Shown: positions 2,684 to 22,858, numbered from the stretch's first letter. The stretch: DNA of 23,255 nt from a virus (IMGVR_UViG_3300025585_000174:1-23255), one strand, 5' to 3'. A program made the numbers and translations. Notes: generated by a model from the letters alone, not told the origin.

Positions 2684-3487
2684 CTATTTCTGCTTTGCCC
2701 GCTTGTAGGCCAGCACCTTCGACAGATCACCCGTCTTCAGTGCCTCAGCCCGCAGGCGGTCGAGTTGGTTATCTACAGTCCCTGCCGTGCGGCCCGAGCT
2801 TTTCACGGGCGACTCCGGCGGCGGCGGCGGCTTTCGAGTGGTCACTTTGAGTTCCTTTTCGAGTTTCGCAACCGCGAATGCAAATTTCACGGGATCGGAG
2901 ATCGCTGCTAGCTCCTTTGCACGCTTCGGGTTCTTCCCGATTGCGTACACAACCAGTGCCGGGTTATCTGCGCCTTGAAGCAGGATGCCTTGCTGGACCT
3001 CGGAGAGCGCTTCTTGCGTGGTCGCTTCTGCGTCCTCGTAGTCCCGTACCCGCAACGCCGACTTGGCCTTGCCGTAGTCATCCAACTTCGCCTGCCACGA
3101 ACGTGCTGCTTCTTCCTCTGCCGCCTTGGCTTTCGCCGATTCGGCATCGACTGCACGCTTTCGCTCGTACCAGCTTTCGAGAGCGCCCTCAAACTTGTCA
3201 GTGTCGTAATCGAAGTCCTCGAGCTTCGGCTTATTCCCAAGCGGCGGCCGTTTCGGCTCCGCAGTGGACAGCTTGGCTTCAAGCTCTCGAATCAGACGCT
3301 GCTGCTCGCGGTGGCTCTTGCGCAGCTCCTTAACCCACTGTGGCGCGGGCTGCGATTCTTCCTCGTGAGGTGGCGACTCCTCACCAATCGAGACGACTAC
3401 CTCTTCCTCTTCCACATCCTCGACCGTCTCGGTCTCTGGCGCTTCTGGTTCGAGTTCGACCTCTTCTGCCGTGTTTTCGATATCCAT
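2684..3487 (-). CDS. Capsid scaffolding protein (P22 gp8-like)
   Basis: 267 aa from ATG 3487, chosen because AGGCGAG precedes it; an upstream ATG at 3517 has no ribosome-binding site. The N-terminus is extremely acidic (runs of E and D to about residue 45). The middle is charged and helical (WVKELRKSHREQQRLIRELEAKL and an alanine-rich coil). Then comes a segment like the P22 scaffold (DNPALVVYAIGKNPKRAKELAAI), and a basic helix-turn-helix tail (DQ/NQLDRLRAEALKTGDLSKVLAYKRAKQK) of the type that binds coat in P22. The position directly before coat supports scaffold. The protein would be inside the procapsid and leave before DNA packaging. There is little sequence identity to P22, as is usual for scaffolds. 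Confidence 0.87.
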   Translation of the reverse strand: MDIENTAEEVELEPEAPETETVEDVEEEEVVVSIGEESPPHEEESQPAPQWVKELRKSHREQQRLIRELEAKLSTAEPKRPPLGNKPKLEDFDYDTDKFEGALESWYERKRAVDAESAKAKAAEEEAARSWQAKLDDYGKAKSALRVRDYEDAEATTQEALSEVQQGILLQGADNPALVVYAIGKNPKRAKELAAISDPVKFAFAVAKLEKELKVTTRKPPPPPESPVKSSGRTAGTVDNQLDRLRAEALKTGDLSKVLAYKRAKQK

Positions 3488-3519
3488 ATACTCGCCTGGT
3501 TGGTTGGCGGAAACCATGA

Positions 3520-9735: not shown

Positions 9736-10953
9736 CTATCTCCAGCGATTCGCCACGGCTAGCGGCGTCACCTCGGCGACTGGCCGCGCAGCCTGCGCCC
9801 TGCGGACGCCTTCAAGCGCATATCGTAACGCATCGATACAGTGATTGTCTCTGTCCTGCAGAACAGGAAGCACGGCTCCTGTCAAGGTGTCCGTCTTGTA
9901 ACTGTAGAGCGACAGCTCATCAATGACGTGCTGGCAGCGCGGGTGAACGACGATATCGTAGGATTTCAGCCACTCGATGCCCTCAAAGACACTGTTCGCG
10001 CCCTTCACCGCCGCAGTGATTCGCGGGAAGCCATGCTTTCGCATGTGGCTGATTGTCTCGGGCCGCGAGCTATCGGCCACCATCGGCCACTTCTCGGCCT
10101 CCGGCACCGACATGAACAGGTCCGGCGTTGCTGTTATGTCGCAGCCCAGCGCGTAGGCCTCGTGGTCGACGTACAGAGTCCGACCGACCAAGTGACAGCG
10201 AACCAATACAGTCGGGTCGACCGCAAAGCCCCAGTCGGCGCCGAGCCTGTGAATCGCGTCCTTGGGAGCTTCGAACTCCTCGACCTTCCAGTTTCGGAAC
10301 ACGCGCGCCTCTGAATTCGTCAGGTAAGCGCCGCGCCAGACGTGCTGGTACTTTTCCGGGTCGCGGGCGCGGTCGTACTCCATCTCGGCGCGCAGGACTT
10401 CGGGGAACCATGGGTTCGAGTCGTAGTTGACAGTCACCAGCCGCGTTGAAGGCGGCAGCGTCGAGCCTGAGAACATCACCTCGACCGGATCGGTTTCGTA
10501 TTTCGGATTCCAAGTTAGCCAGATTTGGCTGCCTTCCTGTCGGATGGTCGGGATCAAAGTATCAAGACTCGACTGGCTGACCGTCTGCGCTTCTTCGATC
10601 CAGCAGACCTCGATGCCTTCCATCGACTTCACCGAGTCGACGTTTGTTCTCAACCCGGCGAACAGGAACAAGCTGCCGTTCTTGCCTCTGATCTCTGTAT
10701 CCGTTGAGACGAAGAACTTCCCTAGCCCGCAGCGCGCAATCTCGTCGTCTAGGAGGCGTTTTACCGAGTCCCTGATACTCTTCTGTATCTCCCGAGCGCA
10801 AAGCACCCGTAGAGGCTTCTGTGCGGCCCTGAGCACTAATGCGGTGGCGACCGACCGGCTCTTGCCGGAACCACGCCCGCCGCGCACGGCGATGTATCGC
10901 GCCGACTCGTCAAAAAGAACTTCGGCCCAGTCGGGCAAGTTAGCTTCAGCCAT
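9736..10953 (-). CDS. Terminase large subunit (ATPase/nuclease)
   Basis: 405 aa, Terminase_3-type motor. Walker A is GGRGSGKS (residues 25-32), Walker B is VCWIEEAQ (116-123), and the coupling motif is LTWNP (146-150). The C-terminal RNase H-fold nuclease shows its acidic residues in GADWGFAVDP (Asp240), MVADSSRPE (Asp294) and RDNHCIDALRYA (Asp369/Asp374). All motifs are intact. The enzyme cuts concatemeric DNA and pumps it into the procapsid through the portal encoded next. The ATG overlaps the small terminase stop by 8 bases, which suggests coupled translation. This kind of large subunit fits headful (pac) packaging in P22/Sf6-like phages, though the packaging mode is not proved here. Confidence 0.95.
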   Translation of the reverse strand: MAEANLPDWAEVLFDESARYIAVRGGRGSGKSRSVATALVLRAAQKPLRVLCAREIQKSIRDSVKRLLDDEIARCGLGKFFVSTDTEIRGKNGSLFLFAGLRTNVDSVKSMEGIEVCWIEEAQTVSQSSLDTLIPTIRQEGSQIWLTWNPKYETDPVEVMFSGSTLPPSTRLVTVNYDSNPWFPEVLRAEMEYDRARDPEKYQHVWRGAYLTNSEARVFRNWKVEEFEAPKDAIHRLGADWGFAVDPTVLVRCHLVGRTLYVDHEAYALGCDITATPDLFMSVPEAEKWPMVADSSRPETISHMRKHGFPRITAAVKGANSVFEGIEWLKSYDIVVHPRCQHVIDELSLYSYKTDTLTGAVLPVLQDRDNHCIDALRYALEGVRRAQAARPVAEVTPLAVANRWR

Positions 10954-11632: not shown

Positions 11633-11740
11633 GGAACAAAGGAACAACACTTAGTGTTGTTGTTCCTGTTTGTTCCCCTGCATGTACCCTTATCCCGGGG
11701 AACAAAACGGAACTGTTCCCCTATTGTTCCGTTTTGTTCC
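11633..11740. repeat. Paired GTTCC/GGAAC iteron-like repeats with nested hairpins
   Basis: Four GGAAC (11633, 11641, 11699, 11709) and five GTTCC (11662, 11672, 11715, 11726, 11736) fall in 108 bases. Three pairs are spaced exactly 10 bases apart, one helical turn. GGAACAAAACGGAAC (11699-11713) and GTTCCGTTTTGTTCC (11726-11740) are a perfect 15-bp inverted repeat. TGTTCCCC (11671-11678), GGGGAACA (11697-11704) and TGTTCCCC (11714-11721) allow two mutually exclusive hairpins. AACAACAC/GTGTTGTT (11643-11661) is another 8-bp stem. The set fills the gap between primase-helicase and DUF3310 and enters the 3' end of the helicase gene. It may be a replication origin, an operator or an RNA switch; no T-run marks a terminator. 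Confidence 0.85.
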
Positions 11741-13592
11741 GCAGCGCCAGCATAGCACTACTGTGCACCTCATCGACAACTAACCAGCCGGAACCATATA
11801 CTTCAATGATATTATTAGATATTAACTCGCATATTATGCGACCCTTTTGGTTGGGCTTCACGTAGATCTTGGCCGACGCCTCCTTGATGCCCTTGTCATC
11901 AATTAGATATTGAATTAAATCGTCCCGAGATAAATACGGCAAATTCATCCGAACATCTTTGCCGCTTGATTCCCAGGCCGACTCGAACTGGTTTCGATGC
12001 TGCGCAAGCTTGCTGTTTACGTTCATCGCGGCGGTATCAGCCTCGACCATAACCCCGCTGGTGACGGGTTCTCCGTCCTCATCGACCCAGCCTGGTATCT
12101 GCACGCCCTGTATCCGAACGTTCACGGGTTCCGGTATTTCGGCGTCTTTGCTCTTCCGCTGGATGAGCTGAATCACCTCGCCCGGCACCACTGATATCTC
12201 GACATCAAGCGCGCCACGCCACGCGCTGGAGCCTCTGGCGCGATGCTGTGCTTCCTCGCTTACGCCGGTATGGTGGACCAGTATCACAGTGCAGTCGAAC
12301 TCGCGCATCAGCCCGGCGCAGGCGTCCAGCATGGTCTTGGCGTCTTGGGCAGAGTTCTCGTCGCCTGCAAGGAATCGGTGCAGGGTATCAACAACGATGA
12401 CGCGCGGCGGGCTTTCGAGCAGTCGAATATGCTCGACCGCCTTGATGTAGCCGCTCGGCGTATTCAAGTCGCAGCCGCTGTCGGATATCCACATGTCGCC
12501 GATTCGCTCGACGCCGTGCAGGTGCTTCCACGCCGCCAGGCGCGCCCGTAGGCCGACGTGACCTTCGCCAGCGAGGTAGACAACACCGCCCTGCCGGACC
12601 TTCTTTCCGAGCCATTCTGGCTGGCCTGACGCGATGCGCGCCACCCAGTCGAGAACTTGAAACGTCTTGCCGGACCCACTTGGTCCGTGGACCATGATCA
12701 TGGCATCGGCCTGAATCCAGCCCTTCACCAGCCACTTGATGGGCGCGGGCTGTTGGCTGAAGTCATCCGCGTTGTGTAGCCAGCGGTCTTTTGTCTGGTT
12801 GCGCAGCAGCTCCTCGGCGACTGCGGTGCCGAGCGCGACGCTGGCGGCCTTGTCCTCTTCTGGTTCGTATCGAGCCACCGAGCGCGCGATCTGCGCAATC
12901 TCACTCGCAGGAAGCGGCACGTCGCAGCGAGTCTCATTTGCGACATTTAGCGCGGCCAGAATCTCGGCCTCGGTCATGCCGTGGTAGCGCATCGACCCGG
13001 CAAGCGATGTCAGTCCGGCGTTTCGGTTGCCGGTTATCAACCCGCCGTCGACAGCCACCGATCGCTTTCGCTCCGACATTGCGCCGACCCAGCGGGTCGG
13101 AACAGGCATGACCGCGACGCCTTCCATGGGATCGCTGGAGCCTTCCCACTCGTATGATTTTCCGCCGATCTCCGACGGATAAGCGATGAAGTAGCGCCCG
13201 TCTGACAGGAAGTCGACACCCTGCGCCAGCTTTGACGATCGCAGGCCTGGCTCCCATAGCGCAAGTCGGTGTTCGCCACCACCTGCCGTCAGCTGTACCG
13301 GCCCGTCGAGCGAATCGCCTACGCGCTCAAGCCAGTCGTCCCAGCCTTCGCGCCCGCCATTCCGCGGGTCAATGTCGAAAACAACGATGCCGCTGATCTC
13401 GCCAGCAGCAATCGCAACGTTGTAGTCCGGGTTCTCTCGCCACCAGCGTTCAATTTGCTTCGTGTCTGTCGTCGCATCGTGCACGCCGTGTTGAGTCGCT
13501 GGCAGCTTGCTGTTTGGCTGCACTGGCAGAACATGCCAGCCGACTGACGCATACCAAAGCGCGGCGTCAAGCCTGCTGATCGTCATCTGCAT
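11721..13592 (-). CDS. Primase-helicase: PrimPol-type primase fused to RepA-like helicase
   Basis: 623 aa. The N-terminal domain is a bifunctional primase/polymerase (PrimPol) fold: YASVGWHVLPVQPNSKLPAT (14-33), the catalytic pair VFDIDPRNGG (Asp73, Asp75) and GGGEHRL (His108). The C-terminal motor has Walker A HGPSGSGKT (302-310), Walker B VIVVDTL (398-404) and VILVHHTG (436-443), typical of hexameric RepA-like helicases. The last 100 or so residues look like a winged-helix segment. It would unwind DNA and make primers for phage replication. It overlaps the cro-like gene by 26 bases and is transcribed with the late genes, while other replication genes run the other way. The start could also be the ATG two codons later. 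Confidence 0.93.
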   Translation of the reverse strand: MQMTISRLDAALWYASVGWHVLPVQPNSKLPATQHGVHDATTDTKQIERWWRENPDYNVAIAAGEISGIVVFDIDPRNGGREGWDDWLERVGDSLDGPVQLTAGGGEHRLALWEPGLRSSKLAQGVDFLSDGRYFIAYPSEIGGKSYEWEGSSDPMEGVAVMPVPTRWVGAMSERKRSVAVDGGLITGNRNAGLTSLAGSMRYHGMTEAEILAALNVANETRCDVPLPASEIAQIARSVARYEPEEDKAASVALGTAVAEELLRNQTKDRWLHNADDFSQQPAPIKWLVKGWIQADAMIMVHGPSGSGKTFQVLDWVARIASGQPEWLGKKVRQGGVVYLAGEGHVGLRARLAAWKHLHGVERIGDMWISDSGCDLNTPSGYIKAVEHIRLLESPPRVIVVDTLHRFLAGDENSAQDAKTMLDACAGLMREFDCTVILVHHTGVSEEAQHRARGSSAWRGALDVEISVVPGEVIQLIQRKSKDAEIPEPVNVRIQGVQIPGWVDEDGEPVTSGVMVEADTAAMNVNSKLAQHRNQFESAWESSGKDVRMNLPYLSRDDLIQYLIDDKGIKEASAKIYVKPNQKGRIICELISNNIIEVYGSGWLVVDEVHSSAMLALRNKTEQ

Positions 13593-13851: not shown

Positions 13852-14205
13852 ATGATGCACAAATTCCTTACCTCCGCCGTTGCCGATTTTGAGCGGGCCG
13901 CACTGCCGTATGGCGAGTGCGACTTTTGGTGGGAGTTCGGAGCGGAGCGGGAATTCCGCGACGCTCCAGCGCCGTTCACGGTTGAGTCTTTTGACTCGAC
14001 TGAAAGGCGTGAGTGGCAGGGGCGTCAGTTAATAACTGACGGCGCGGTCGGCGTCCAACTGCTGGACGCGAATGGGCGCATCTGGCGCAAGGCCGGCGTC
14101 TGGGTCGAGGGCGATCTCGTCAAGGATGCCAGAGGATACCTCTGGCTTAAGGACCATGTAGCCGCAATCGACGGCGATCACCAAAACGGAGGGGCCGCCC
14201 TATGA
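13852..14205 (+). CDS. Unknown protein, first gene of the rightward operon
   Basis: 117 aa with AAGGAG 7 bases before ATG 13852. I do not recognise the family. It is rich in tryptophan (WWEFG, REWQG, RIWRKAGVWVEG, YLWLKD) and mixed in charge, with no membrane segment, signal peptide, helix-turn-helix or cysteine cluster. The second half reads as short beta-strands (GAVGVQLLDANGRIWRKAGVWV, GYLWLKDHVAAI). Its stop overlaps the Sak4-like start (ATGA), so it belongs to the recombination operon. The first gene behind an early phage promoter is often a host-takeover or regulatory factor, but nothing here proves that. The coding sequence contains several perfect hairpins and rare codons (TTA, ATA, AGA) at stem positions. 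Confidence 0.75.
   Translation: MMHKFLTSAVADFERAALPYGECDFWWEFGAEREFRDAPAPFTVESFDSTERREWQGRQLITDGAVGVQLLDANGRIWRKAGVWVEGDLVKDARGYLWLKDHVAAIDGDHQNGGAAL
13900..14146 (+). other. Cluster of hairpins inside the 117-aa gene
   Basis: Six stem-loops can be drawn on the transcript. They are 13900-13920 (8 bp with one bulge), 13939-13967 (GGAGCG/CGCTCC and GCGG/CCGC flanking a tandem G-A mismatch), 13984-13997 (GAGTC-TTTT-GACTC), 14024-14040 (GTCAGTTA around A), 14051-14069 (GCGTCCA/TGGACGC) and 14128-14146 (GCCAGAGG-ATA-CCTCTGGC, perfect 8 bp). They may form an early-leader RNA structure. No known RNA family is recognised. Confidence 0.5.
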
Positions 14206-14873
14206 AACTCCAACGAACCAACTCAATCGCCGACCAGGGCCAAAAGTTTCTGGGCTACGGCGCCGCAGGCGTCGGTAAAACTTCACTTATACCGACACTT
14301 CCCGACCCAATCATCCTATCGTCAGAAGGAGGCCTCTTATCGATCCGGGATGCTGACCTGCCATTCATTGAGATCGCGACCATGGCCGACCTGCACGAAG
14401 CCTACGCTTGGCTCGTCGGCAGCGACGAGGCGAAGGTCTATCAGTCCGTCGCGCTCGACAGCATCAGCGAGATCGCTGAGGTTGTCTTAAACAGCGAGAA
14501 GAAAGCGACAAAAGACCCGAGACAAGCATACGGCGCCATGCAGGAACAGATGGCGGATCTTATTCGCGCCTTCCGCGACCTGCCCGGCAAGCACGTCTAT
14601 ATGAGCGCGAAGCTGGACAAAAGTCAGGACGAGATGGGCAAGATCCTCTACGCGCCCTCGATGCCCGGAAATAAAACCGGGCAGATGTTGCCGTACTTTT
14701 TCGACGAGGTATTGGCTCTGCGCGTCGAGAAGGACGCAGACGGCAACCCCGTCCGCGTGCTGCAGTGCCAGCCTGACGGCGCGTGGCTTGCGAAGGACCG
14801 AAGCGGCGCGCTCGATATGTGGGAAGAGCCGGATCTTGGGGCACTGATCAAGAAGATCGGAGGCGAGCTGTGA
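14202..14873 (+). CDS. Sak4-like RecA-fold recombination ATPase (AAA_24)
   Basis: 223 aa. Walker A is GAAGVGKT (20-27), preceded by QKFLGYG; Walker B-like VALDSIS lies at 83-89 (Asp86). IILSSEGGLLSI and HVYMSAKLDKSQDEMGK are typical of the AAA_24 (PF13479) phage ATPases, among which Sak4 is the studied example. Sak4 proteins have a RecA core and promote single-strand annealing with a partner SSB. A DUF669 SSB-like protein is encoded two genes on, which is the usual pairing. The ATG overlaps the preceding stop, with GGAGGGG 7 bases upstream. It acts in recombination-linked replication or repair of phage DNA. Confidence 0.88.
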   Translation: MKLQRTNSIADQGQKFLGYGAAGVGKTSLIPTLPDPIILSSEGGLLSIRDADLPFIEIATMADLHEAYAWLVGSDEAKVYQSVALDSISEIAEVVLNSEKKATKDPRQAYGAMQEQMADLIRAFRDLPGKHVYMSAKLDKSQDEMGKILYAPSMPGNKTGQMLPYFFDEVLALRVEKDADGNPVRVLQCQPDGAWLAKDRSGALDMWEEPDLGALIKKIGGEL

Positions 14874-15271
14874 AATTTAACAATATGTCGACATCGGAAC
14901 TTTGTTCAGATTGGATCGAATGCAAAGCAACAGAGAAGGCGGCGACCGACCACCGCCGAGAGATCGAGGACGAACTGACCCGGCGCTTGGAGATCGCCGA
15001 GACGCTAGACGGAACGCAGCGTCCTAATGTGGACGGCTACACCGTAAAGGTCACTGGACGGATCGACCGCAAGGTCGATGCAGACAAGGTGCAGGAACTG
15101 GCGGCGGAGCACGACCTGACGGATGAGCTTTCGCGGCTGTTCCGCTGGAAGCCCGAAATCAACATGAACATGTGGAAGTCGTATCCCGAAACGACGACCA
15201 GACTTCTTTCCCCGGCGATCACGGCCAAGCCTGGCAGGCCGTCTTACACAATCGAAACGAAGGAGCAATAA
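14870..15271 (+). CDS. Small conserved phage protein between Sak4-like and SSB-like genes
   Basis: 133 aa from GTG 14870, which overlaps the previous stop (GTGA) and has GGAGG 6 bases upstream. This start is preferred over the longer upstream frame, which would run through the Sak4-like gene. The N-terminal half is helical and charged (ELCSDWIECKATEKAATDHRREIEDELTRRL). The middle has a beta-hairpin (VDGYTVKVTGRIDRKVDADKV) and the end has RLLSPAITAKPGRPS. The pattern resembles a family of phage proteins (I think DUF7173, name uncertain) that sits beside Sak4-type recombinases. Function unknown; a recombination accessory role is inferred from position. Confidence 0.78.
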   Translation: MKFNNMSTSELCSDWIECKATEKAATDHRREIEDELTRRLEIAETLDGTQRPNVDGYTVKVTGRIDRKVDADKVQELAAEHDLTDELSRLFRWKPEINMNMWKSYPETTTRLLSPAITAKPGRPSYTIETKEQ

Positions 15272-15274
15272 AAA

Positions 15275-15748
15275 ATGGCACGACTTGATATGGCAATCGA
15301 CCTCAACGACCTCCCGGTTCGGGAGTCGTCCTACGACCCGGTGCCGCCGGGCTGGTATACCGCGACCATTCAGGAAGCAGACGCTCGTCCGACGAAGGAC
15401 GGCACAGGGCAATACATCAAGATCCGCTGGCGGATCGACGGCCCGGCGCATGAAGGTCGCATCGTGTTCGGCAACCTGAACGTGCGCAACAAGTCGGTTA
15501 AAGCCGAGGAAATCGGCCGCCAGCAGATGGGAGAGGTCCTGCGCGCAGTAGGGCTGCAGCGCCTTGAGGACACCGACCAGCTGGTGGGCGCGTCGCTCAT
15601 GATCAAGCTGGACATCCGTCCGGCGAATGACCAGTACGCCGCGCAGAACGAGATTCGCGGCTACAAGCCCAGCGAAAACGCCCCGCCGGTCGCGGCGGTT
15701 GCGCCAAGCGCGGCTAAAAAGTCGCCGCCGTGGGCTGCGAAGCGTTAA
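15275..15748 (+). CDS. DUF669 protein, phage SSB-like
   Basis: 157 aa. PPGWYTATIQEADARPTKDG, then QYIKIRWRIDGPAHEGRIVFGNLNVRNKS and GRQQMGEVLRAVGL is the DUF669 pattern. The family is predicted to be an OB-fold single-strand-binding partner of Sak4-type ATPases. The C-terminus is alanine/proline-rich and ends in KKSPPWAAKR; many DUF669 proteins end in PPWA, perhaps a protein-contact tip like that of SSB. AAGGAG precedes the ATG by 10 bases. It would coat single strands during phage recombination. Confidence 0.87.
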   Translation: MARLDMAIDLNDLPVRESSYDPVPPGWYTATIQEADARPTKDGTGQYIKIRWRIDGPAHEGRIVFGNLNVRNKSVKAEEIGRQQMGEVLRAVGLQRLEDTDQLVGASLMIKLDIRPANDQYAAQNEIRGYKPSENAPPVAAVAPSAAKKSPPWAAKR

Positions 15749-15754
15749 AACAGC

Positions 15755-15790
15755 AAGGAGGCGGGGCCGGAAACGGCCCCACAAAAGATG
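15755..15790 (+). promoter_or_regulatory. Shine-Dalgarno and start codon separated by a GAAA-capped hairpin
   Basis: AAGGAGG (15755-15761) is an ideal ribosome-binding site but lies 26 bases before ATG 15788. A perfect 7-bp hairpin GGGGCCG-GAAA-CGGCCCC (15763-15780) fills the gap. If it folds, the effective spacing drops to 8 bases. Phage T4 gene 38 is a known example of a hairpin bridging a distant Shine-Dalgarno. No T-run follows, so it is not an intrinsic terminator. Confidence 0.7.
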
Positions 15791-16879
15791 ATCCAGGAAG
15801 TAATAAATTACATTGATTCGCTTGATCTTGAAAACAAAATAAAAGCAATCAATGACATACGCGAAAAAATTCACGAAATATCGCCGTTCAAAAATGAACC
15901 GGTTGATTTCGTTAGATGGGTTAAATCAGATCAAGTATATGCCAACGACTACAACCCAAACAGCGTGGCACCCCCTGAAATGGAATTGCTGGCGCATTCA
16001 ATTCTTAGTGATGGATACACTCAGCCAATCGTCACGTATCCGACAGATCAAGGCCGCGAGGTTGTAGACGGTTTTCACCGTAACCGTGTTGGAAAAGAAA
16101 ACGGCGAAGTACGCGCTAGAGTTGGAGGGTATCTCCCGGTTGTTTCGATCAAGGAATCACAGTCAGACAAAAGCGATCGGATAGCGTCAACTATTCGGCA
16201 CAATCGGGCCAGAGGAAAACACAAAGTCGATGCGATGTCAGATATTGTGATTGAGCTTACTAGGCGCAACTGGTCTGACGAAAAGATTGCCAAAAACCTC
16301 GGCATGGACGCAGACGAAGTGCTAAGGCTTCGGCAAATAACAGGATTGGCGGACGCATTCAAAAATCAAGATTTTTCCGAAGCCTGGGAAGTTGATCGTG
16401 ATGACTCAATTGCTGGAGAAATTATCAGCGACATAATTGCTGGATTTGAGCAAGACGACAAGGGGCGGATATTCCACACCTGGGAGCGCTGGGAATGCTA
16501 CAAAGCCGGTTTTTACGCCGAGCGCCTAACTGAAATGACGCAAGAAGAAGGCGAAGAAAAATACCAAGCGTTTTTGTCTGATCTAGACGCATTTGGCGCA
16601 GCCTTGCATGACGTGATTACAAAGTGGAAGTATTCGTGCGAGCACTATTTAACAAATGATCGCATGAACCGGATTGCATGGCTTGGTCAAGCATCGGTCT
16701 GTTATGCGCTGGGAATCCCGTCAATGTGTCGCGGCGGATACCATCGGCTTTCCGATGAACAAAAAAACACGGCAGACAATCTTGCGCTGGAATATCTGAA
16801 CAAATGGCTGTTTGCGAACGGAAGGGATCTAGTTGACTACGATTCCGCTGGTGGCAGGACAAAGGCGGAGTTGTATTAA
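15788..16879 (+). CDS. IbrB-like ParB-domain protein fused to a C-terminal phage domain
   Basis: 363 aa. The N-terminal ParB-like domain (about 40-145) shows YNPNSVAPPEM, SILSDGYTQPIVTY, VVDGFHRNRVG (92-102) and TIRHNRARGKH (135-145), the last typical of IbrB. A helix-turn-helix follows (NWSDEKIAKNLGMDADEVLRL, 161-181). Residues from about 228 to the end (HTWERWECYKAGFY, YSCEHYLTNDRMNRIAWLGQA, LALEYLNKWL) form an extra domain that, as I recall, occurs as a separate protein in other phages. In E. coli, IbrA and IbrB together raise expression of prophage eib genes; the mechanism is unknown. The gene is AT-richer than its upstream neighbours (about 43% GC by count in 16381-16440). Its stop overlaps the ibrA-like ATG by one base. 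Confidence 0.85.
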   Translation: MIQEVINYIDSLDLENKIKAINDIREKIHEISPFKNEPVDFVRWVKSDQVYANDYNPNSVAPPEMELLAHSILSDGYTQPIVTYPTDQGREVVDGFHRNRVGKENGEVRARVGGYLPVVSIKESQSDKSDRIASTIRHNRARGKHKVDAMSDIVIELTRRNWSDEKIAKNLGMDADEVLRLRQITGLADAFKNQDFSEAWEVDRDDSIAGEIISDIIAGFEQDDKGRIFHTWERWECYKAGFYAERLTEMTQEEGEEKYQAFLSDLDAFGAALHDVITKWKYSCEHYLTNDRMNRIAWLGQASVCYALGIPSMCRGGYHRLSDEQKNTADNLALEYLNKWLFANGRDLVDYDSAGGRTKAELY

Positions 16880-18093
16880 TGGCTTCTGTAAAAAAACGAA
16901 TTGGCGTTGACGTTTTGACCGCTGCGCGCCAAAGGATTAGTTACACGTTCGATCACTTTGAGGCTGTTTACGTTTCCTTTAGTGCCGGGAAGGATTCCAG
17001 CGTGATGCTTCATCTAGTCATGGATGAAGCAATCAAGCGTGGCAAAAAAGTTGGCGTTCTATTGATTGATTTAGAAGCTCAATACAACCTGACGATCAAG
17101 CACGCGGAAGAAATGTTTGAGCTGTACCGCGATCACATAGATCCATATTGGGTGTGCCTGCCGATAAAACTGAGGAACGCCGTAAGCAATTACGAGCCGG
17201 TTTGGTGTGCCTGGGACCCCGAAAAGCGATCAGATTGGGTTAGGGAAATTCCAAAGCTGGATCATGTAATCAGCGACCCAGAATACTTCGATTTTTTTCA
17301 GCCGATGATGGAGTTTGAGGAATTCATAGGGCTTTTTGCCGACTGGTACGGCAAAGGCCGAGAAACTGCGGCGTTTATCGGCATTCGCGCAGACGAGAGC
17401 CTTAATCGGTTTCGCACCGTCGCCGTATGGGAAAAGGAGACGCACGTTAACAAGCGGTGGACAACGAAAGTTGCCGAATCAGTGTACAACGTCTATCCAA
17501 TATATGACTGGCATGTGACTGACATATGGAAATACCACGCCGCATTTTCTGATAAGCCACACAATCAGGTATATGACCGGATGCAGCTTGCTGGGGTTTC
17601 ACTGCATCAGATGCGTCTTTGCCAGCCATACGGAGACGATCAGCGGCGAGGCCTTTGGCTGTATCACCTTATAGAACCGGAAACATGGGGCCGCGTTGTG
17701 GCAAGGGTAAACGGAGCAAACTCTGGCGCGCTCTATATTGAGGAAACAGGCAATGTTACTGGGTATAACCGCGTAACGTTGCCCCCAGGTCATACGTGGA
17801 GATCATTTTGCCAACTTCTTTTGTCAACAATGCCAAAGGTGACGCGAGACCATTACGTTGAAAGGTTTAACGATTGGATTCTAGGATGGCACAAGCGTGG
17901 CTATAGAAACGGCTTTCCAGATTACGCTCCGCGCGAACTTGAAAAAAAGTATTGGGCACCATCTTGGCGCCGCATGTGCAAAGTATTGCTTAGAAATGAC
18001 TGGTGGTGCAAAGGATTGGGTTTGACGCAACCAAAATCAAAAGCATACGAAAAGTATATTGAAATAAAAAAGCAAAGGCAAAAAAATGGCTAA
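16879..18093 (+). CDS. IbrA-like PP-loop ATPase / PAPS-reductase family (DUF3440)
   Basis: 404 aa. The PP-loop SFSAGKDSSVMLHL (33-46) is the ATP-pyrophosphatase signature of PAPS reductases and related sulfur or base-modifying enzymes. LLIDLEAQYNLTI (61-73), GIRADESLNRFR (168-179) and the long C-terminal part (GYRNGFPDYAPRELE, SWRRMCKVLLRNDWW) identify the DUF3440/IbrA group. PP-loop enzymes activate a substrate by adenylation; the IbrA substrate is not known. The gene starts in the stop of the ParB fusion and its end overlaps the Cas4-like gene by 8 bases. GC is low (40% in 17281-17340). A DndC-like role in sulfur chemistry is conceivable, but no other phosphorothioation gene is present. Confidence 0.9.
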   Translation: MASVKKRIGVDVLTAARQRISYTFDHFEAVYVSFSAGKDSSVMLHLVMDEAIKRGKKVGVLLIDLEAQYNLTIKHAEEMFELYRDHIDPYWVCLPIKLRNAVSNYEPVWCAWDPEKRSDWVREIPKLDHVISDPEYFDFFQPMMEFEEFIGLFADWYGKGRETAAFIGIRADESLNRFRTVAVWEKETHVNKRWTTKVAESVYNVYPIYDWHVTDIWKYHAAFSDKPHNQVYDRMQLAGVSLHQMRLCQPYGDDQRRGLWLYHLIEPETWGRVVARVNGANSGALYIEETGNVTGYNRVTLPPGHTWRSFCQLLLSTMPKVTRDHYVERFNDWILGWHKRGYRNGFPDYAPRELEKKYWAPSWRRMCKVLLRNDWWCKGLGLTQPKSKAYEKYIEIKKQRQKNG

Positions 18094-19096
18094 GATCCTC
18101 CCACCACTACACACCATCGAAAGCATGATCGACCAGGTCATGGTCGAAAACTCTGACAACACCCCCCGCTCGCACCTTGGCTGCAGCCAGATCGGCCACG
18201 CCTGCGAGCGCTGGTTGTGGCTGTCGTTCCGCTGGGCAGTACGGCCGAGCTTTTCGGGTCGCACGCTTAGGATCTTTCGGCGCGGGAATCGTGAGGAACG
18301 CATCATCGCGAGTGATCTCGAACATATCGGTATTGATATAAGACACACCGGCGCATCACAGAAGCGCATCTCTTTCGGCCCGCACGTAGGCGGGTCCGTT
18401 GACGGCATCATCGAGCGCGGTGTGCCTGGGGCTGAGGGCAAGCGGCATATCGCTGAGTTCAAAACCACCAACGCCAAGAATTTCTCGAAGCTGGAAAAAG
18501 AGGGCGTGCAGAAGGCGCAGCCGATGCACTACGCCCAGATGCAGTTGTACATGCTTGGCACCGGCATCGACCGAGCGCTATACGTGGCTGTATGCAAAGA
18601 CGACGACCGCTACTACACCGAGCGCGTGTCGCTTGATAAAGCGGCTGCCGAAGCCCTGCGTGATAAAGCCCTGCGCATTGTTGCGTCCGAGACGATGCCT
18701 GCGCCCATCAGCACCGACCCCAGCTGGTATCAGTGCAGGTTCTGCGACGCGCACGAATTCTGCCACACGACCAAGCTTACCAAGGAAGTGAACTGCCGCA
18801 CCTGCGCGCATAGTGCCGTCCAAGAGCAATGGCACTGCAACAGGTGGGAGGACGACATCCCTGTCGGTCACCAGCGCAAAGGCTGCGACAGCCACGTACT
18901 GCACCCCGACTTGGTGCCGTGGCCGTTTCGCCAAAGCGACGACGAGTTCGATGCGCTATACGTCATTGCCGGAGTTCCGGTGATGAACGGCCCGAACGGC
19001 TACGCGTCAACGGAGCTGATAGCGAATGCGCCTGCATGCGCGGTGGGGTTGGGGCAGGCGTTCCGGGAGGAGATGGGCGGGAGGGTTGTAGGATGA
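18086..19096 (+). CDS. Cas4-like PD-(D/E)XK Fe-S nuclease with extra zinc-type cysteines
   Basis: 336 aa. Nuclease residues: GGSVDGIIE (Asp106), AEFKTTN (Glu124, Lys126) and YAQMQLYM (Gln151). Cys40 plus Cys217, Cys220 and Cys226 (CRFCDAHEFC) have the spacing of a Cas4/AddB Fe-S cluster. A second set (Cys237, Cys240, Cys251, Cys267) looks like a zinc site seen at the end of related phage proteins. It is probably an exonuclease that makes single-strand ends for the Sak4/DUF669 system. Composition returns to GC-rich (58-63% in sampled lines), unlike the genes on both sides. The ATG overlaps the ibrA-like end and the ribosome-binding site is weak, so translation may be coupled. Confidence 0.9.
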   Translation: MAKILPPLHTIESMIDQVMVENSDNTPRSHLGCSQIGHACERWLWLSFRWAVRPSFSGRTLRIFRRGNREERIIASDLEHIGIDIRHTGASQKRISFGPHVGGSVDGIIERGVPGAEGKRHIAEFKTTNAKNFSKLEKEGVQKAQPMHYAQMQLYMLGTGIDRALYVAVCKDDDRYYTERVSLDKAAAEALRDKALRIVASETMPAPISTDPSWYQCRFCDAHEFCHTTKLTKEVNCRTCAHSAVQEQWHCNRWEDDIPVGHQRKGCDSHVLHPDLVPWPFRQSDDEFDALYVIAGVPVMNGPNGYASTELIANAPACAVGLGQAFREEMGGRVVG

Positions 19097-19713
19097 ACAC
19101 TTCGCACGATTTTGTTGTGGTCTCGCAACATCCAGACCTTCTGAAATACATTGACATGCTGCAAAAAAAGAACGCAGAAGCGCTCAGTTTTTACCCAATG
19201 TCTGTATTTGAAAGAGAAGCCCAAAAAGGTCGTTTATTTCTTGGTCTGTTGAACAACCAGCCGTGCGGTTACTTGTACGCAGGAGCACAAAATCACAGAG
19301 ATGTTAAGTTGCATCAAGTTTGCATTCAATATGACGCACGGCGCCGATTATACGGAGCGATGATTGCCGCAGTTATGGAGGAATACGCTATAGAGGGGAA
19401 AGCCACAACCATCACTCTGCGTTGTGGATTTGACTTAGACGCAAACCATTTTTGGTCTGCTCTAGGATATGTCTGCATCGCACACCAGACAGGCGGAGTC
19501 AGACGCATGCGAACAATCAACGTTTGGCGAAAATGGTTGCGGCCAGAATTATTTGAGACGCTTGCGATAGAACCTGCAATCGGAAAAACAGACGCATCTT
19601 TATGGCGTAAGCACAAACAAACAGGAATCGTTTCACAGTTTGTGCGCGGAAAAAAAATGGATCAATACAGAGCAACGCTTGTGTCATCTGAAAACCCTAC
19701 GGATTTGAAGTGA
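19093..19713 (+). CDS. GNAT-family acyltransferase, possibly modification-linked
   Basis: 206 aa from ATG 19093, in an ATGA overlap with the nuclease stop; a longer upstream frame is only the nuclease read out of frame. The acyl-CoA loop is VCIQYDARRRLYGAM (76-90). The C-terminal part has LDANHFWSALGYVCIA (115-130) and GGVRRMRTINVWRKWL (134-149). That ending (N-F-x-x-x-G-Y/F and then R..NVW) resembles a group of phage GNATs rather than ribosomal or drug acetyltransferases. The Mu Mom DNA-modification enzyme also has a GNAT-type fold, but a direct relation is only a guess. Low GC (38-47% in sampled lines) matches the IbrB/IbrA genes. The substrate could be DNA, a nucleotide or a protein. Confidence 0.82.
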   Translation: MNTSHDFVVVSQHPDLLKYIDMLQKKNAEALSFYPMSVFEREAQKGRLFLGLLNNQPCGYLYAGAQNHRDVKLHQVCIQYDARRRLYGAMIAAVMEEYAIEGKATTITLRCGFDLDANHFWSALGYVCIAHQTGGVRRMRTINVWRKWLRPELFETLAIEPAIGKTDASLWRKHKQTGIVSQFVRGKKMDQYRATLVSSENPTDLK

Positions 19714-21311
19714 TGCTGAGACCCTACCAACACAAAGCCATTACCCAGCTATACGCTTGGTTCGAGCGCAATCCAACCGGCAACCCGTGTTTGGTCCTCC
19801 CAACGGGGTCTGGCAAAAGTCACATCATCGCGCACCTCTGCCACGACATGCTGACCACTTGGCCCGAGACGCGGGTGCTGATGTTGACGCACCAGAAAGA
19901 GCTGATTGAACAGAACGCCGAGAAACTACTCGGCGTCTGGCCGGACGCGCCGCTCGGCATCTATTCGGCCAGCGTTGGGCGCAAGGATCTGGATCAGATT
20001 ACCTTCGCTGGCATCCAGTCGGTGAGGCGCCAGGCCAAGACGATCGGTCACGTCGATATCGTCATGATTGACGAATGCCACCTCGTCAGCCACCACGATA
20101 CCGGAAGCTACCGAAAGCTCCTTGCCGAGTTGAAGGAGATCAATCCGGCCCTGCGCGTTGTAGGTCTTACGGCAACTCCTTACCGCCTCGGCTACGGGTC
20201 GATCACTGACGAACCGGCGATCTTTTCCGACTTGATCGAGCCTACCAGCGTGTTGGATCTGGTGCAGGCTCAGTACCTGTCACCGCTGCGCTCTAAGATG
20301 ACGGACCACAGGTACGAGCTGGACGGGCTACACAAACGCGGTGGCGACTACATCGAGAAAGAGCTGGCCGAGCGCATAAATACGGACGGCCAGAATGTCG
20401 AGGTGGTGGATGAAATCATCAACCGTGGCCGCGACAGGCGCAGCTGGTTAATCTTCTGCTCAGGCGTCGATCACTCCTACGCTGTAGCCTCGCGGCTACG
20501 TGATCGCGGTATCAGCGCAGAGACAATCACCGGCGAGACGCCTAAGGCAACTCGCGAGTCATTACTAAGTGACTTCCGAGCAGGACGCCTGCGCGCTCTG
20601 ACGAATGCGAATTGTTTAACGACTGGTGTCGACGTGCCCGGCATCGACCTGATCGCACTGCTGCGCCCCACCGCCTCGCCCGGTTTGTACGTGCAGATGG
20701 TTGGTCGCGGCATGCGCATGGCTGAAGGCAAGTCCGACTGCTTGGTGCTCGACTTCGCTGGTGCCGTGAAAGCCCACGGCCCGATAACCGACGTGCGCCC
20801 GCCGGGCAAGGCTGGTCAAGGCGAAGCGCCGCTGAAGGCCTGCCCGGAATGCAACGAGCTGATTCACTTGTCGGTAATGCACTGCATTGCCTGCGGGTAC
20901 GAATTCCCGCCACCACCAAAGCCAAAGCCGAAACTGCACGACGACGACATCATGCGCATCGCGCCGTTTCAGATGCGCGTCACCGACTGGCGCTGGGACA
21001 AGCATATATCGCGCACCAGCGGTATTGAGATGCTGCGCATCAGCTACTATTCCGGGCTGACTAATTACCCGGTGCGTGAGTACATGCCCGTTCGGCATGA
21101 GGGATATGCCGGACGCAAAGCGGTCGAGACAGTCGCTATACTGGCTCGCTCGGCAGGCGCTGACGTGTTCGAGATCGACGACCTGACCGAACTGGCGCAG
21201 GTGCTGTCGCGCTCGACACCGCCGGCAATTGTCGAGTACAAGCGGGATGGAAAGTTTCACCGAGTAGTAAGGCGAATATGGAACGTTACACCGAACTGGA
21301 ACGCGGCGTGA
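19713..21311 (+). CDS. SF2 DEAD/DEAH-type helicase with zinc motif
   Basis: 532 aa from ATG 19713, whose A is the last base of the preceding TGA; a GTG one codon upstream is possible. Motifs (numbered from the GTG): LRPYQHKAI Q-like start, Walker A PTGSGKS (31-37), DECH (121-124), TATP (154-157), and NCLTTGVDVPGID and QMVGRGMRM in the second RecA domain. A CxxC...CxxC zinc element (CPECNELIHLSVMHCIACGY) follows. The C-terminal 110 or so residues form a separate domain. This SSL2/RecQ-like layout is common in phages next to VRR-NUC nucleases, as here. It probably remodels DNA at replication or recombination forks. Confidence 0.92.
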   Translation: MLRPYQHKAITQLYAWFERNPTGNPCLVLPTGSGKSHIIAHLCHDMLTTWPETRVLMLTHQKELIEQNAEKLLGVWPDAPLGIYSASVGRKDLDQITFAGIQSVRRQAKTIGHVDIVMIDECHLVSHHDTGSYRKLLAELKEINPALRVVGLTATPYRLGYGSITDEPAIFSDLIEPTSVLDLVQAQYLSPLRSKMTDHRYELDGLHKRGGDYIEKELAERINTDGQNVEVVDEIINRGRDRRSWLIFCSGVDHSYAVASRLRDRGISAETITGETPKATRESLLSDFRAGRLRALTNANCLTTGVDVPGIDLIALLRPTASPGLYVQMVGRGMRMAEGKSDCLVLDFAGAVKAHGPITDVRPPGKAGQGEAPLKACPECNELIHLSVMHCIACGYEFPPPPKPKPKLHDDDIMRIAPFQMRVTDWRWDKHISRTSGIEMLRISYYSGLTNYPVREYMPVRHEGYAGRKAVETVAILARSAGADVFEIDDLTELAQVLSRSTPPAIVEYKRDGKFHRVVRRIWNVTPNWNAA

Positions 21312-21586
21312 TCAACTGGGCGATTGACCGGGAAATCATCCCGAATAGCACCCCGATGGCGCAGGGCATTAAAACCCTGGAGGAAGTGACGGAGCTTCTT
21401 TCAGCAACGCAGCGTGGCTTCCGAGGCGAAATGCAGGATGCATACGGCGATATTCTCGTTACCCTAATCGTTGGCTCCCGCCTGGCTGGTTTTGAGCTGC
21501 TGGATTGTCTCGAACACGCCTACAACGTCATCAAGGACCGAAAAGGAACGCTGCGGTCGGATGGAGTGTTTGTCAAAGATGCCTAG
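21278..21586 (+). CDS. MazG-like nucleotide pyrophosphohydrolase
   Basis: 102 aa. The all-alpha NTP-pyrophosphatase signature is present: LEEVTELL (Glu35, Glu36, Glu39), then GEMQDAYGDILVTLI (Glu51, Asp54, Asp58), the metal-binding set of MazG-type enzymes. These hydrolyse NTPs or dNTPs to monophosphates. In phages they may clear unwanted nucleotides or alter host alarmone levels. The start overlaps the helicase end by 34 bases with AAGGCG before the ATG. The length is that of a single-domain MazG. Confidence 0.86.
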   Translation: MERYTELERGVINWAIDREIIPNSTPMAQGIKTLEEVTELLSATQRGFRGEMQDAYGDILVTLIVGSRLAGFELLDCLEHAYNVIKDRKGTLRSDGVFVKDA

Positions 21587-21767
21587 GCCAACCGAACCCG
21601 ATATCGTCCTGTCTTGGCGAGACCATCCAAAGCCTCCGCGATGCTGCCATACTTGCGATAACTATTCGGAGGATGGTATATGCATCGAATTCGACGCCGA
21701 GCCGCCGGAGCTGTTCGCGCGGCAACCAGGCGCGTGTCCGGCGTGGGTGATGGCGCCCCCGTTCTGA
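21579..21767 (+). CDS. Small cysteine-rich zinc-ribbon-like phage protein
   Basis: 62 aa from ATG 21579, which overlaps the MazG-like end by 8 bases. CCHTCDNYSEDGICIEF, then FARQPGACPAW and a final PPF give a CxxC ... C ... C pattern seen in short phage proteins that end in W....(I/P)PF. It probably binds zinc. A longer in-frame upstream extension is only MazG read in another frame. Function unknown. Confidence 0.72.
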   Translation: MPRPTEPDIVLSWRDHPKPPRCCHTCDNYSEDGICIEFDAEPPELFARQPGACPAWVMAPPF

Positions 21768-22123
21768 GTGAGCATTATGAGCAGGCGACATTCGTCGCCT
21801 GGTTCCGGCAAACGTACCCCTCCGTCCGCATCTTCGCCATACCCAATGGCGGTTCTCGCTCCCGCACGCAAGGCGCCAAGCTTAAGCTAGAAGGCGTCAG
21901 CCCAGGCGTGCCGGATCTTTTCATACCAGCATGGATGCTGTGGATCGAGATGAAGCGATCCGTCGGCGGGCGGCTATCCGCAGAGCAGAAAGACTGGATC
22001 GACTACTTGCAAAGCGTGGGACATTGCGCGATAGTGTGCGCAGGGTGCGGTGACGCACAGGAAAAGGTGAGAAGGTTTGAAAAAGGATCGATATCTAACG
22101 GTTCGCCTGCCGCCAGCGGTTGA
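21680..22123 (+). CDS. VRR-NUC domain nuclease
   Basis: 147 aa if started at ATG 21680, where GGAGGA lies 7 bases upstream. The core begins near residue 30 (SEHYEQATFVAWFRQTYP), then PNGGSRS, GVPDLFIP (Asp79), WIEMKR (Glu90, Lys92) and LSAEQKDW (Gln103), the VRR-NUC (PD-(D/E)XK) active-site set. VRR-NUC enzymes act on branched or flapped DNA and in phages often neighbour an SF2 helicase, as here. Residues 1-28 are basic (MHRIRRRAAGAVRAATRRV) and are encoded entirely inside the previous gene. A GTG at 21743 would give the usual short form. The true start is uncertain. Confidence 0.88.
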   Translation: MHRIRRRAAGAVRAATRRVSGVGDGAPVLSEHYEQATFVAWFRQTYPSVRIFAIPNGGSRSRTQGAKLKLEGVSPGVPDLFIPAWMLWIEMKRSVGGRLSAEQKDWIDYLQSVGHCAIVCAGCGDAQEKVRRFEKGSISNGSPAASG

Positions 22124-22220
22124 GGCCGAGCTGCGCAAAGTCGCAGAGGCGCAGACCCGCACGCTGGCCGGGCAAATTTTGTTTTACGTCCAGGAGGGAT
22201 TGAAGCGTGACAAGGAATGA
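22077..22220 (+). CDS. Ribbon-helix-helix (Arc-like) DNA-binding protein
   Basis: 47 aa from TTG 22077. KKDRYLTVRLPPAVEAELRK is a beta-strand (YLTVRLP) followed by helix 1, and TRTLAGQILFYVQEGLKR is the loop and helix 2 of a ribbon-helix-helix fold (Arc/CopG type). AAGGTGA lies 6 bases before the TTG, and the frame is blocked by a stop just upstream, so no longer start exists. It overlaps the VRR-NUC end by 47 bases. RHH proteins bind operator DNA as dimers and often tandemly; the target here is unknown. Confidence 0.75.
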   Translation: MKKDRYLTVRLPPAVEAELRKVAEAQTRTLAGQILFYVQEGLKRDKE

Positions 22221-22293
22221 CTTGATCGGCTGCGTTTTCTGGTTCTTTTTGGTTTACGGAATGGGCTATTTGGCACTGGTGACTGCACCATGA
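22207..22293 (+). CDS. 28-aa single-span membrane protein
   Basis: MTRNDLIGCVFWFFLVYGMG and on to a short tail. A GTG start at 22207 has GGAGGG 8 bases upstream, and the stop overlaps the next ATG (ATGA). One hydrophobic helix (about residues 6-26) fills the peptide. The strong ribosome-binding site and the overlaps at both ends support translation. It overlaps the RHH gene by 14 bases. Function unknown. Confidence 0.62.
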   Translation: MTRNDLIGCVFWFFLVYGMGYLALVTAP

Positions 22294-22523
22294 GCAGAGA
22301 AAGGTGGTGGATTGTTGACGATGGCGTCGAACTGAACATCGTATCGAATGGCGTAGAGCCGCTGCATGCCCGACGCGGCCCGTTTGACTCCTCATATGAA
22401 GCTGAGGAGTGGGCAGAGCGCTGGGAGCGAAAGCAGCGCGCTCGCGAGGATGCCGCCTACATGGTGATGTTGGGTTGGGCGCTTTTTGCCGTCATCGGTT
22501 TCTTCTGGTGGGTGTTCACGTGA
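22290..22523 (+). CDS. Unknown protein with C-terminal membrane segment
   Basis: 77 aa. The N-terminal part is soluble and charged (RERWWIVDDGVELNI, EAEEWAERWERKQRARED). Residues about 57-76 (YMVMLGWALFAVIGFFWWVF) are one transmembrane helix at the very end, with the positive side in front, so the soluble part should face the cytoplasm. The start is in an ATGA overlap with the 28-aa membrane protein and the stop shares a base with the next ATG. I do not recognise the family. Two membrane peptides in a row could act together, but a lysis role is not supported. Confidence 0.68.
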   Translation: MSRERWWIVDDGVELNIVSNGVEPLHARRGPFDSSYEAEEWAERWERKQRAREDAAYMVMLGWALFAVIGFFWWVFT

Positions 22524-22858
22524 TGCTGCCTTACTTCAAGCGAATCAAGCCGGAAAAAATCAAACGACGCCCGGTGATTAAGTTCCCGGGCGTTCAAAAG
22601 TTTATGGAACTGCTGCGCGAGCATAAGCCCGAACGCATCGCCGAAATGCTGGACGTGACGCCGCACACGGTGACCAAGTGGGTGAAGATCCACGAGCTTG
22701 GGCATTTGTTGCCTGCAACGGCAGGATTTCACGCCGGATATCACAACCACCTCGCCTACAAGTGGGCGAAGGTAAAACTCAGTAATGCGGAGGGGATAAA
22801 CGGATGGTTCAGGAGGCTACCAAGAAACGCGGCGAAGGACACCCGCGCGCCAAGTTGA
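22523..22858 (+). CDS. Probable helix-turn-helix protein of unknown function
   Basis: 111 aa from ATG 22523, which shares its A with the preceding TGA. Residues about 20-58 (VQKFMELLREHKPERIAEML, DVTPHTVTKWVKIHELG) carry a helix-turn-helix. The N-terminus is very basic (FKRIKPEKIKRRPVIK). The last 18 or so codons overlap the next gene, so the true C-terminus may be less conserved. A longer upstream frame is an out-of-frame reading of the membrane gene. It may be a regulator or a DNA-binding accessory protein. Confidence 0.65.
   Translation: MLPYFKRIKPEKIKRRPVIKFPGVQKFMELLREHKPERIAEMLDVTPHTVTKWVKIHELGHLLPATAGFHAGYHNHLAYKWAKVKLSNAEGINGWFRRLPRNAAKDTRAPS

Follow-up and report, generated by a model that had tools for sequence, protein, structure and literature searches.

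The phage gene pair IbrB-IbrA has a third component, IbrC, and a possible role in DNA modification

We have analyzed a virus record of 23,255 bases from IMG/VR (IMGVR_UViG_3300025585_000174:1-23255, the whole of which is called here the window) that carries the genes of a ParB-like protein, IbrB, and of a PP-loop enzyme, IbrA. In phages and bacteria alike these two genes are obligate neighbours, and in the window a third protein family, named IbrC here, is fused to IbrB. With a confidence that stays a little short of even, and by analogy with known systems, we read IbrB-IbrC plus IbrA as an accessory phage DNA-modification module, the pair being found in a genomic slot that in related phages is filled by known DNA-modification genes. 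A more specific possibility, which we regard as doubtful, is that IbrB-IbrC-(GNAT)-IbrA makes up a DNA-hypermodification machine not recognised before, that is, a PP-loop adenylating complex driven by a ParB/sulfiredoxin (Srx) nucleoside triphosphatase (NTPase) that would ligate and, in lineages with a GNAT acetyltransferase, acylate a group on phage DNA. The elements of the cassette in the window are:

15747..18087 (no strand assigned): IbrBA cassette, its boundaries set by the empty site in a related contig, L087
15788-16879, plus strand: open reading frame (ORF) of the IbrB-IbrC fusion, 363 amino acids
15788..16399, plus strand: IbrB part of the fusion, a ParB/sulfiredoxin-type domain (DGFHR, TIRHNRARGxH) and then a helix-turn-helix-like segment, WSDEKIAKNLGMDADEVLRL
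16424..16879, plus strand: IbrC domain, fused to IbrB
16879-18093, plus strand: IbrA ORF, 404 amino acids, PP-loop ATP pyrophosphatase (PAPS_reduct) and DUF3440, with the PP-loop and RxxES residues intact

IbrB matches PHROG_2159 (E 2e-71) and, below threshold, Pfam ParB_N (19.1 bits), and in IbrA PF01507 PAPS_reduct (E 1.1e-14) is followed by PF11922 DUF3440 (E 1.8e-35), both above their gathering cut-offs. Together with a GNAT gene located further downstream (19093-19713; Pfam Acetyltransf_1, E 1e-4), they are genuine ORFs that match their families significantly, at the positions given in a preliminary description of this DNA.

The case for DNA as the target is positional. Cluster-B mycobacteriophages have a slot between the homologous left-end ParB gene (gp1) and the terminase gene (the homology of both was checked), which we compared, Gordonia relatives included, in L225:1-4474 and the left ends of L229, L230, L231, and L232. 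In Akoma it is filled by IbrA-IbrB, in CRB2 and Laurie by DpdA-QueC-QueD-QueE-GTP cyclohydrolase, and in Mithril by a DpdA-like protein and an amino-acid:DNA-transferase (PF18724, E 1e-8). The finding of IbrA-IbrB in the slot of DpdA/QueCDE or amino-acid:DNA-transferase genes suggests that DNA is also the target of the former. In Rosebush, a phage of Laurie's genus, dPreQ0 was measured at about 28% of G (PMC6884629), and the first genes of Tonitrus are ParB and thymidine hypermodification genes (PMC11955845). Along similar lines, a GNAT-domain protein and a formyltransferase come after the left-end ParB of Gordonia phage Ligma, the gene order in Arthrobacter phage Salgado is ParB-IbrA-IbrB-methyltransferase-terminase and that in Bacillus phage 035JT001 is ParB-IbrA-methyltransferase-IbrB (both methyltransferases by PHROG). 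At the right end of Microbacterium phage Hendrix (L142:1598-5146), genes for a glucosyltransferase, a methyltransferase, a GNAT (N-acyltransferase) and an IbrA-like protein follow one another and look like a hypermodification cluster. The preliminary description had put forward a DNA or nucleotide modification or counter-defence system, and it is for DNA modification that the cluster-B mycobacteriophages and related actinophages provide positional support. Serratia phage eta, which has a ParB gene and was at one time believed to contain hypermodified guanine, was rejected as an example, as it lacks that base; a PAPS reductase is not mentioned in its paper. The 7-deazaguanine (Dpd) cassettes of the Rosebush type resemble the Ibr module in the combination of a ParB-family protein with a modifying enzyme, and in Akoma also in the slot itself, beside homologous gp1 and terminase. 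However, DpdA is a transglycosylase, while the Ibr module lacks QueCDE and contains a PP-loop ATP enzyme instead; no DpdA was found among the window genes scanned.

The conserved residues of IbrA are consistent with ATP-dependent adenylation of a substrate. Among 174 homologues, S35, G37-S40 (the PP-loop), D64, E66, R170, E173, S174, R177, D210, W211, D215, and W217 are conserved at 100% after rounding, and the RxxES residues are kept in all 174, while there is no invariant cysteine (no Cys column exceeds 89%). Since the PP-loop residues are invariant and the cysteines are not, PAPS reduction or sulfur transfer of the DndC type is argued against, and IbrA is probably neither a PAPS reductase nor a DndC-like enzyme. 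Database annotation and papers on auxiliary metabolic genes would instead make of IbrA-IbrB a system for phosphorothioation of the DndC type, for another sulfur transfer or for true PAPS reduction, which we believe to be very improbable. There is a weak match to the DndC model TIGR03183 (E 3e-7, 23.0 bits against a cut-off of 290), PAPS reductase models also match below their curated cut-offs (NCBIfam cysH, 22.4 bits against 165), and DndB/DndC are likewise a pair of a ParB-superfamily protein and a PAPS-reductase-like PP-loop enzyme. Besides its variable cysteines, however, IbrA lacks in the window the CysH catalytic motif ECG(I/L)H, and neither DndA/D/E nor other Dnd partners were identified among the window genes scanned. 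In one phage, a PAPS_reduct gene that is followed downstream by a ParB/sulfiredoxin gene has been called a sulfur auxiliary metabolic gene (ORF4, ORF16; PMC10434257); where IbrA-type genes bear such an annotation, it would be likewise doubtful.

IbrB adjoins IbrA in 79 of 80 viral loci and in 77 of 80 genome loci; where loci were gathered with an IbrA query, they are biased toward IbrA. In the phage collection there are 216 records of IbrA and 218 of IbrB, with the same host distribution. The order is B-C-A in the 87 loci with IbrC and A-B in the 79 loci without it. The motifs DGFHR and TIRHNRARG are invariant in 11 diverse aligned IbrB proteins, in which the helix-turn-helix-like DNA-binding segment is also kept. 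The same two adjacent families, a DUF3440 PP-loop enzyme and a ParB/Srx-helix-turn-helix protein, make up IbrA/IbrB of E. coli ECOR-9 and YbdN/YbdM of K-12 (42 and 54% identical to IbrA and IbrB of the window, respectively), but these pairs are in the order A-B and have no IbrC, whereas in the window IbrC is fused to IbrB, the order is B-C-A and the genes lie in a phage replication module. Sequence searches of solved structures with IbrA, IbrB, and the GNAT gave no useful match, and no ParA ATPase partner, as in a ParABS partition system, was found among the window genes scanned.

At its C-terminus the window's IbrB carries 150 residues that belong to a separate family, IbrC. Of 78 viral loci, 26 encode IbrC as an ORF of its own that separates IbrB from IbrA, and 52 as a fusion with IbrB. 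Its invariant motifs are WEC and S.EH.L.N..NR.AW.GQ, and its hidden Markov model (HMM) also matches phages Mwe-JY13, Amjad_SA, XCL1123, and Gaia. The AlphaFold2 model is confident and all-helical (predicted local distance difference test, pLDDT, 91) and found no match in a fold search of the PDB (best E 3). No IbrC was found on plasmids, and its state changes only three times on the IbrA tree.

A small GNAT family, distinct from that of the window, is a true operon partner of IbrA in bacteria and phages. The association of ParB, PP-loop, and GNAT genes seen in the preliminary description is thus real elsewhere, with another GNAT family, but the window is not an example of it. In bacteria, small GNAT-like ORFs (about 120-155 amino acids) are held in the gaps between A and B; among six operonic ones compared with Pfam, two pass the GNAT cut-off, two have weak sub-threshold matches and two have no match, the most diverged being assigned by alignment and an HMM built from that family. 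A small operonic GNAT adjoins IbrA in 18 of 182 loci, from Firmicutes, Proteobacteria, Actinobacteria, Bacteroidota, and one viral contig, and its state changes ten times on the IbrA tree. When one bacterial operonic GNAT was searched against viral contigs, ignoring IbrA, all four new contigs (L234-L237) had IbrA adjoining, and a fifth, weaker phage match also directly precedes an IbrA; the test is small (4/4 plus one). Three of the four contain a four-gene phage operon, IbrB-IbrC-GNAT-IbrA (L235:2985-5582, L236:2997-5592, L237:810-3437). Single-sequence scans with two bacterial operonic GNATs gave no viral matches, two viral queries returned only their own contigs and plasmids gave no match; the operonic-GNAT alignment is too divergent for a pattern scan.

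From all this we infer that the module would chemically modify DNA, most likely that of the phage itself, and so give protection from host nucleases. IbrB would bind DNA through its helix-turn-helix, with a nucleotide in the ParB/sulfiredoxin-type pocket as a switch or motor, and IbrC would be a helical adaptor coupling it to IbrA. With ATP, IbrA would adenylate a group on the base, or a small molecule destined for the base, and the adenylated intermediate would then react with an amine or some other nucleophile. Where a lineage encodes a small GNAT beside IbrA, that enzyme may add an acyl group; the window's own GNAT is not assumed to participate. ParB-family proteins are known as partners of DNA-modification enzymes in DndB and DpdB (PMC10853773, PMC12839542). 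Chemistry of this kind has been described for CmoY, an asparagine-synthetase homologue of phages that acts as an amide ligase and joins glycine to a DNA base handle, carboxymethylcytosine; the mechanism proposed for it is adenylation, and genes with ParB domains lie nearby (PMC12783734). The likeness of CmoX/CmoY cytosine hypermodification to our proposal is in an ATP-dependent amide ligase with ParB-domain neighbours; the difference is that no CmoA/CmoX was identified beside the Ibr module and that IbrA belongs to the PAPS_reduct/DUF3440 branch.

Several points weigh against DNA modification. A common slot is, after all, an analogy and not a common function, and in Streptococcus and Fusobacterium phages the IbrAB pair does not adjoin modification genes. 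We found in the literature no nucleoside data for any IbrAB phage. YbdN-YbdM occupies a fixed chromosomal place in E. coli K-12, and an extra base is not known from the DNA of this strain. The latter point is not decisive, since CitR represses the YbdN/YbdM operon (PMC9068703). The sole published activity of IbrAB, as far as we found, is the activation of eib genes by ibrAB in E. coli (Sandt 2002, as cited in PMC7649339), so that for experimental function the preliminary description could rightly call the pair known only as an eib activator; the pair itself, however, is widespread, as the phage records and YbdN/YbdM show. This activity is what would be expected if IbrA-IbrB were a regulator of gene expression, with IbrB as a transcription factor that binds DNA depending on a nucleoside triphosphate (NTP) and IbrA supplying or modifying its ligand, to switch prophage or host genes. 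The ParB domain and helix-turn-helix-like segment of IbrB agree with this, and YbdM is a predicted transcription factor within a regulated operon (PMC9068703). We consider a regulator unlikely nonetheless, as lytic actinophages hold the pair beside terminase genes, where modification modules are exchanged, and the fully conserved ATP-pyrophosphatase partner and the recurrent GNAT suggest an enzyme pathway over a plain regulator.

Two phages have an ectoine-synthase-like cupin with IbrAB, beside IbrB in XCL1123 (L139:5308-5697) and fused to it in Gaia (L137:5308-5780). This hints at small-molecule chemistry, which is a further point against DNA modification. Some members of the ParB/Srx superfamily hydrolyse nucleotides and some are kinases. 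With its NTPases in mind (PMC12839542), and with small GNATs adjoining IbrA, it is conceivable that IbrA-IbrB, with GNAT or cupin, has as its product or its substrate a small molecule or a nucleotide (an anti-defence signal, NTP/NAD chemistry or an ectoine-like solute) and does not act on DNA. To this we also give a low probability, given the DNA-binding segment kept in the aligned IbrB proteins and a slot common to DNA-modifying enzymes.

The other question is how the module came to its present surroundings. In the window, the minus strand carries head and packaging genes and the plus strand a replication and recombination module with IbrB, IbrA, and the GNAT inside:

1401-2672, minus strand: major head
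2684-3517, minus strand: scaffold
7365-9734, minus strand: portal
9736-10953, minus strand: terminase large subunit
11721-13592, minus strand: Prim-Pol/helicase
14202-14873, plus strand: Sak4-like
15275-15748, plus strand: SSB-like DUF669
15755-15761: Shine-Dalgarno-like AAGGAGG, upstream of the IbrB start
15763..15780, plus strand: RNA hairpin GGGGCCGGAAACGGCCCC, between AAGGAGG and the IbrB start (z -2.86 against shuffles)
18086-19096, plus strand: Cas4/YqaJ-like nuclease, 336 amino acids (PHROG_1990, E 1e-93), its start overlapping the IbrA stop
19093-19713, plus strand: GNAT acetyltransferase, 206 amino acids when started at the 19093 ATG (the ORF as called mechanically begins further upstream), motifs SFYP, HQVCIQYD, and GGxRRxRxINxW
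19710-21311, plus strand: helicase
21278-21586: MazG-like pyrophosphatase gene
21680-22123, plus strand: VRR nuclease

The stable hairpin ahead of the IbrB start codon (in the region 15755-15788) is possibly a structured spacer. GC content and GC at third codon positions (GC3) are 0.45/0.43 in the N-terminal part of IbrB, 0.49/0.53 in the IbrC domain, 0.47/0.50 in IbrA and 0.45/0.43 in the GNAT, against 0.60/0.75 in Cas4, 0.64/0.78 in SSB and 0.59/0.73 in the helicase. The contrast noted in the preliminary description is therefore real (GC3 of 0.43-0.53 against 0.70-0.78, far outside the range of the neighbours), although its 38-47%, from sampled lines, was somewhat below the gene means of 45-49%. 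What it had concluded from this contrast, a joint arrival of the three AT-rich genes around a nuclease or split by it, is contradicted by two relatives and by whole-contig searches. Over 14853-15747 and 18087-22819 of the window, the contig L087 shows nucleotide identities of 91% and 88%, respectively, but IbrBA is absent between the two, about 96 bases being found instead. It has in the same Cas4-helicase position a GNAT 98% identical in amino acids. The nuclease, which there lies next to SSB, is thus a resident backbone gene outside the IbrBA module. L022 is in the opposite state, with SSB, IbrBA, Cas4, and helicase but no GNAT, and a gap of 6 bases from Cas4 to helicase. In whole-contig searches in which the positive controls were detected, IbrA was on 0/27 contigs with the window's GNAT family and this family on 0/40 IbrA contigs; the contigs are fragments and absence is not proof for any single phage, but the pattern is uniform, and the co-occurrence of the three genes in other phages, proposed as a check, was seen on none. 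Of 65 viral loci, 62 have an IbrBA cassette lower in GC than the flanking DNA (mean difference 5.4 points), and relatives at 63-72% nucleotide identity carry the cassette in the same SSB-Cas4 slot, so that low GC is a habit of the cassette and not evidence of a recent shared arrival. The empty site itself (L087:895-990) is a spacer of about 96 bases with an imperfect direct repeat, GCTAGCCGTTGCAC.GCAGCGGCTA, which was not seen at the matching cassette boundaries of the window.

The window's GNAT is an independent cargo of the Cas4-helicase junction, acquired separately from IbrBA. This junction is a variable cargo slot, with the GNAT in the window (19096-19710), a cytosine-C5 DNA methyltransferase in L023:8096-8851 and L068:3493-4386, and a GIY-YIG-like gene in L080:5180-6073. 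It might be argued that this GNAT performs the acyltransferase step of the IbrBA pathway, as its GC3 is similarly low, it is one gene apart from IbrA, GNATs of another family are true IbrA partners and the slot holds DNA methyltransferases in relatives. We find this highly unlikely for a gene that elsewhere never shares a contig with IbrA, occurs without IbrBA in L087 and is unrelated to the operonic GNATs (hhalign probability 1.4%). The family has 27 members, with 67% mean identity and many invariant residues. Its fold is that of a generic GNAT and was uninformative for specificity, the best matches in the PDB being to protein N-terminal acetyltransferases with only 9-18% identity. Mom of phage Mu, as a phage DNA-modification enzyme of GNAT fold, offered a lead, but Mom has its own Pfam family (PF25680), and a relationship was rejected for lack of profile similarity (hhalign probability 0.1%).

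Until now, IbrA and IbrB have been labelled as "co-activators of prophage gene expression" or as auxiliary genes of sulfur metabolism in more than 200 phage records, with no mechanism. Our analysis adds to the pair a third component, whose predicted fold has no match in the PDB, and a GNAT that recurs as a partner, and it proposes DNA modification as a concrete hypothesis. It also argues against calling IbrA genes PAPS reductases in surveys of viral metabolism. If the hypothesis is true, a hypermodification machine would be present in hundreds of phages that are now annotated with a "PAPS reductase" metabolic gene.

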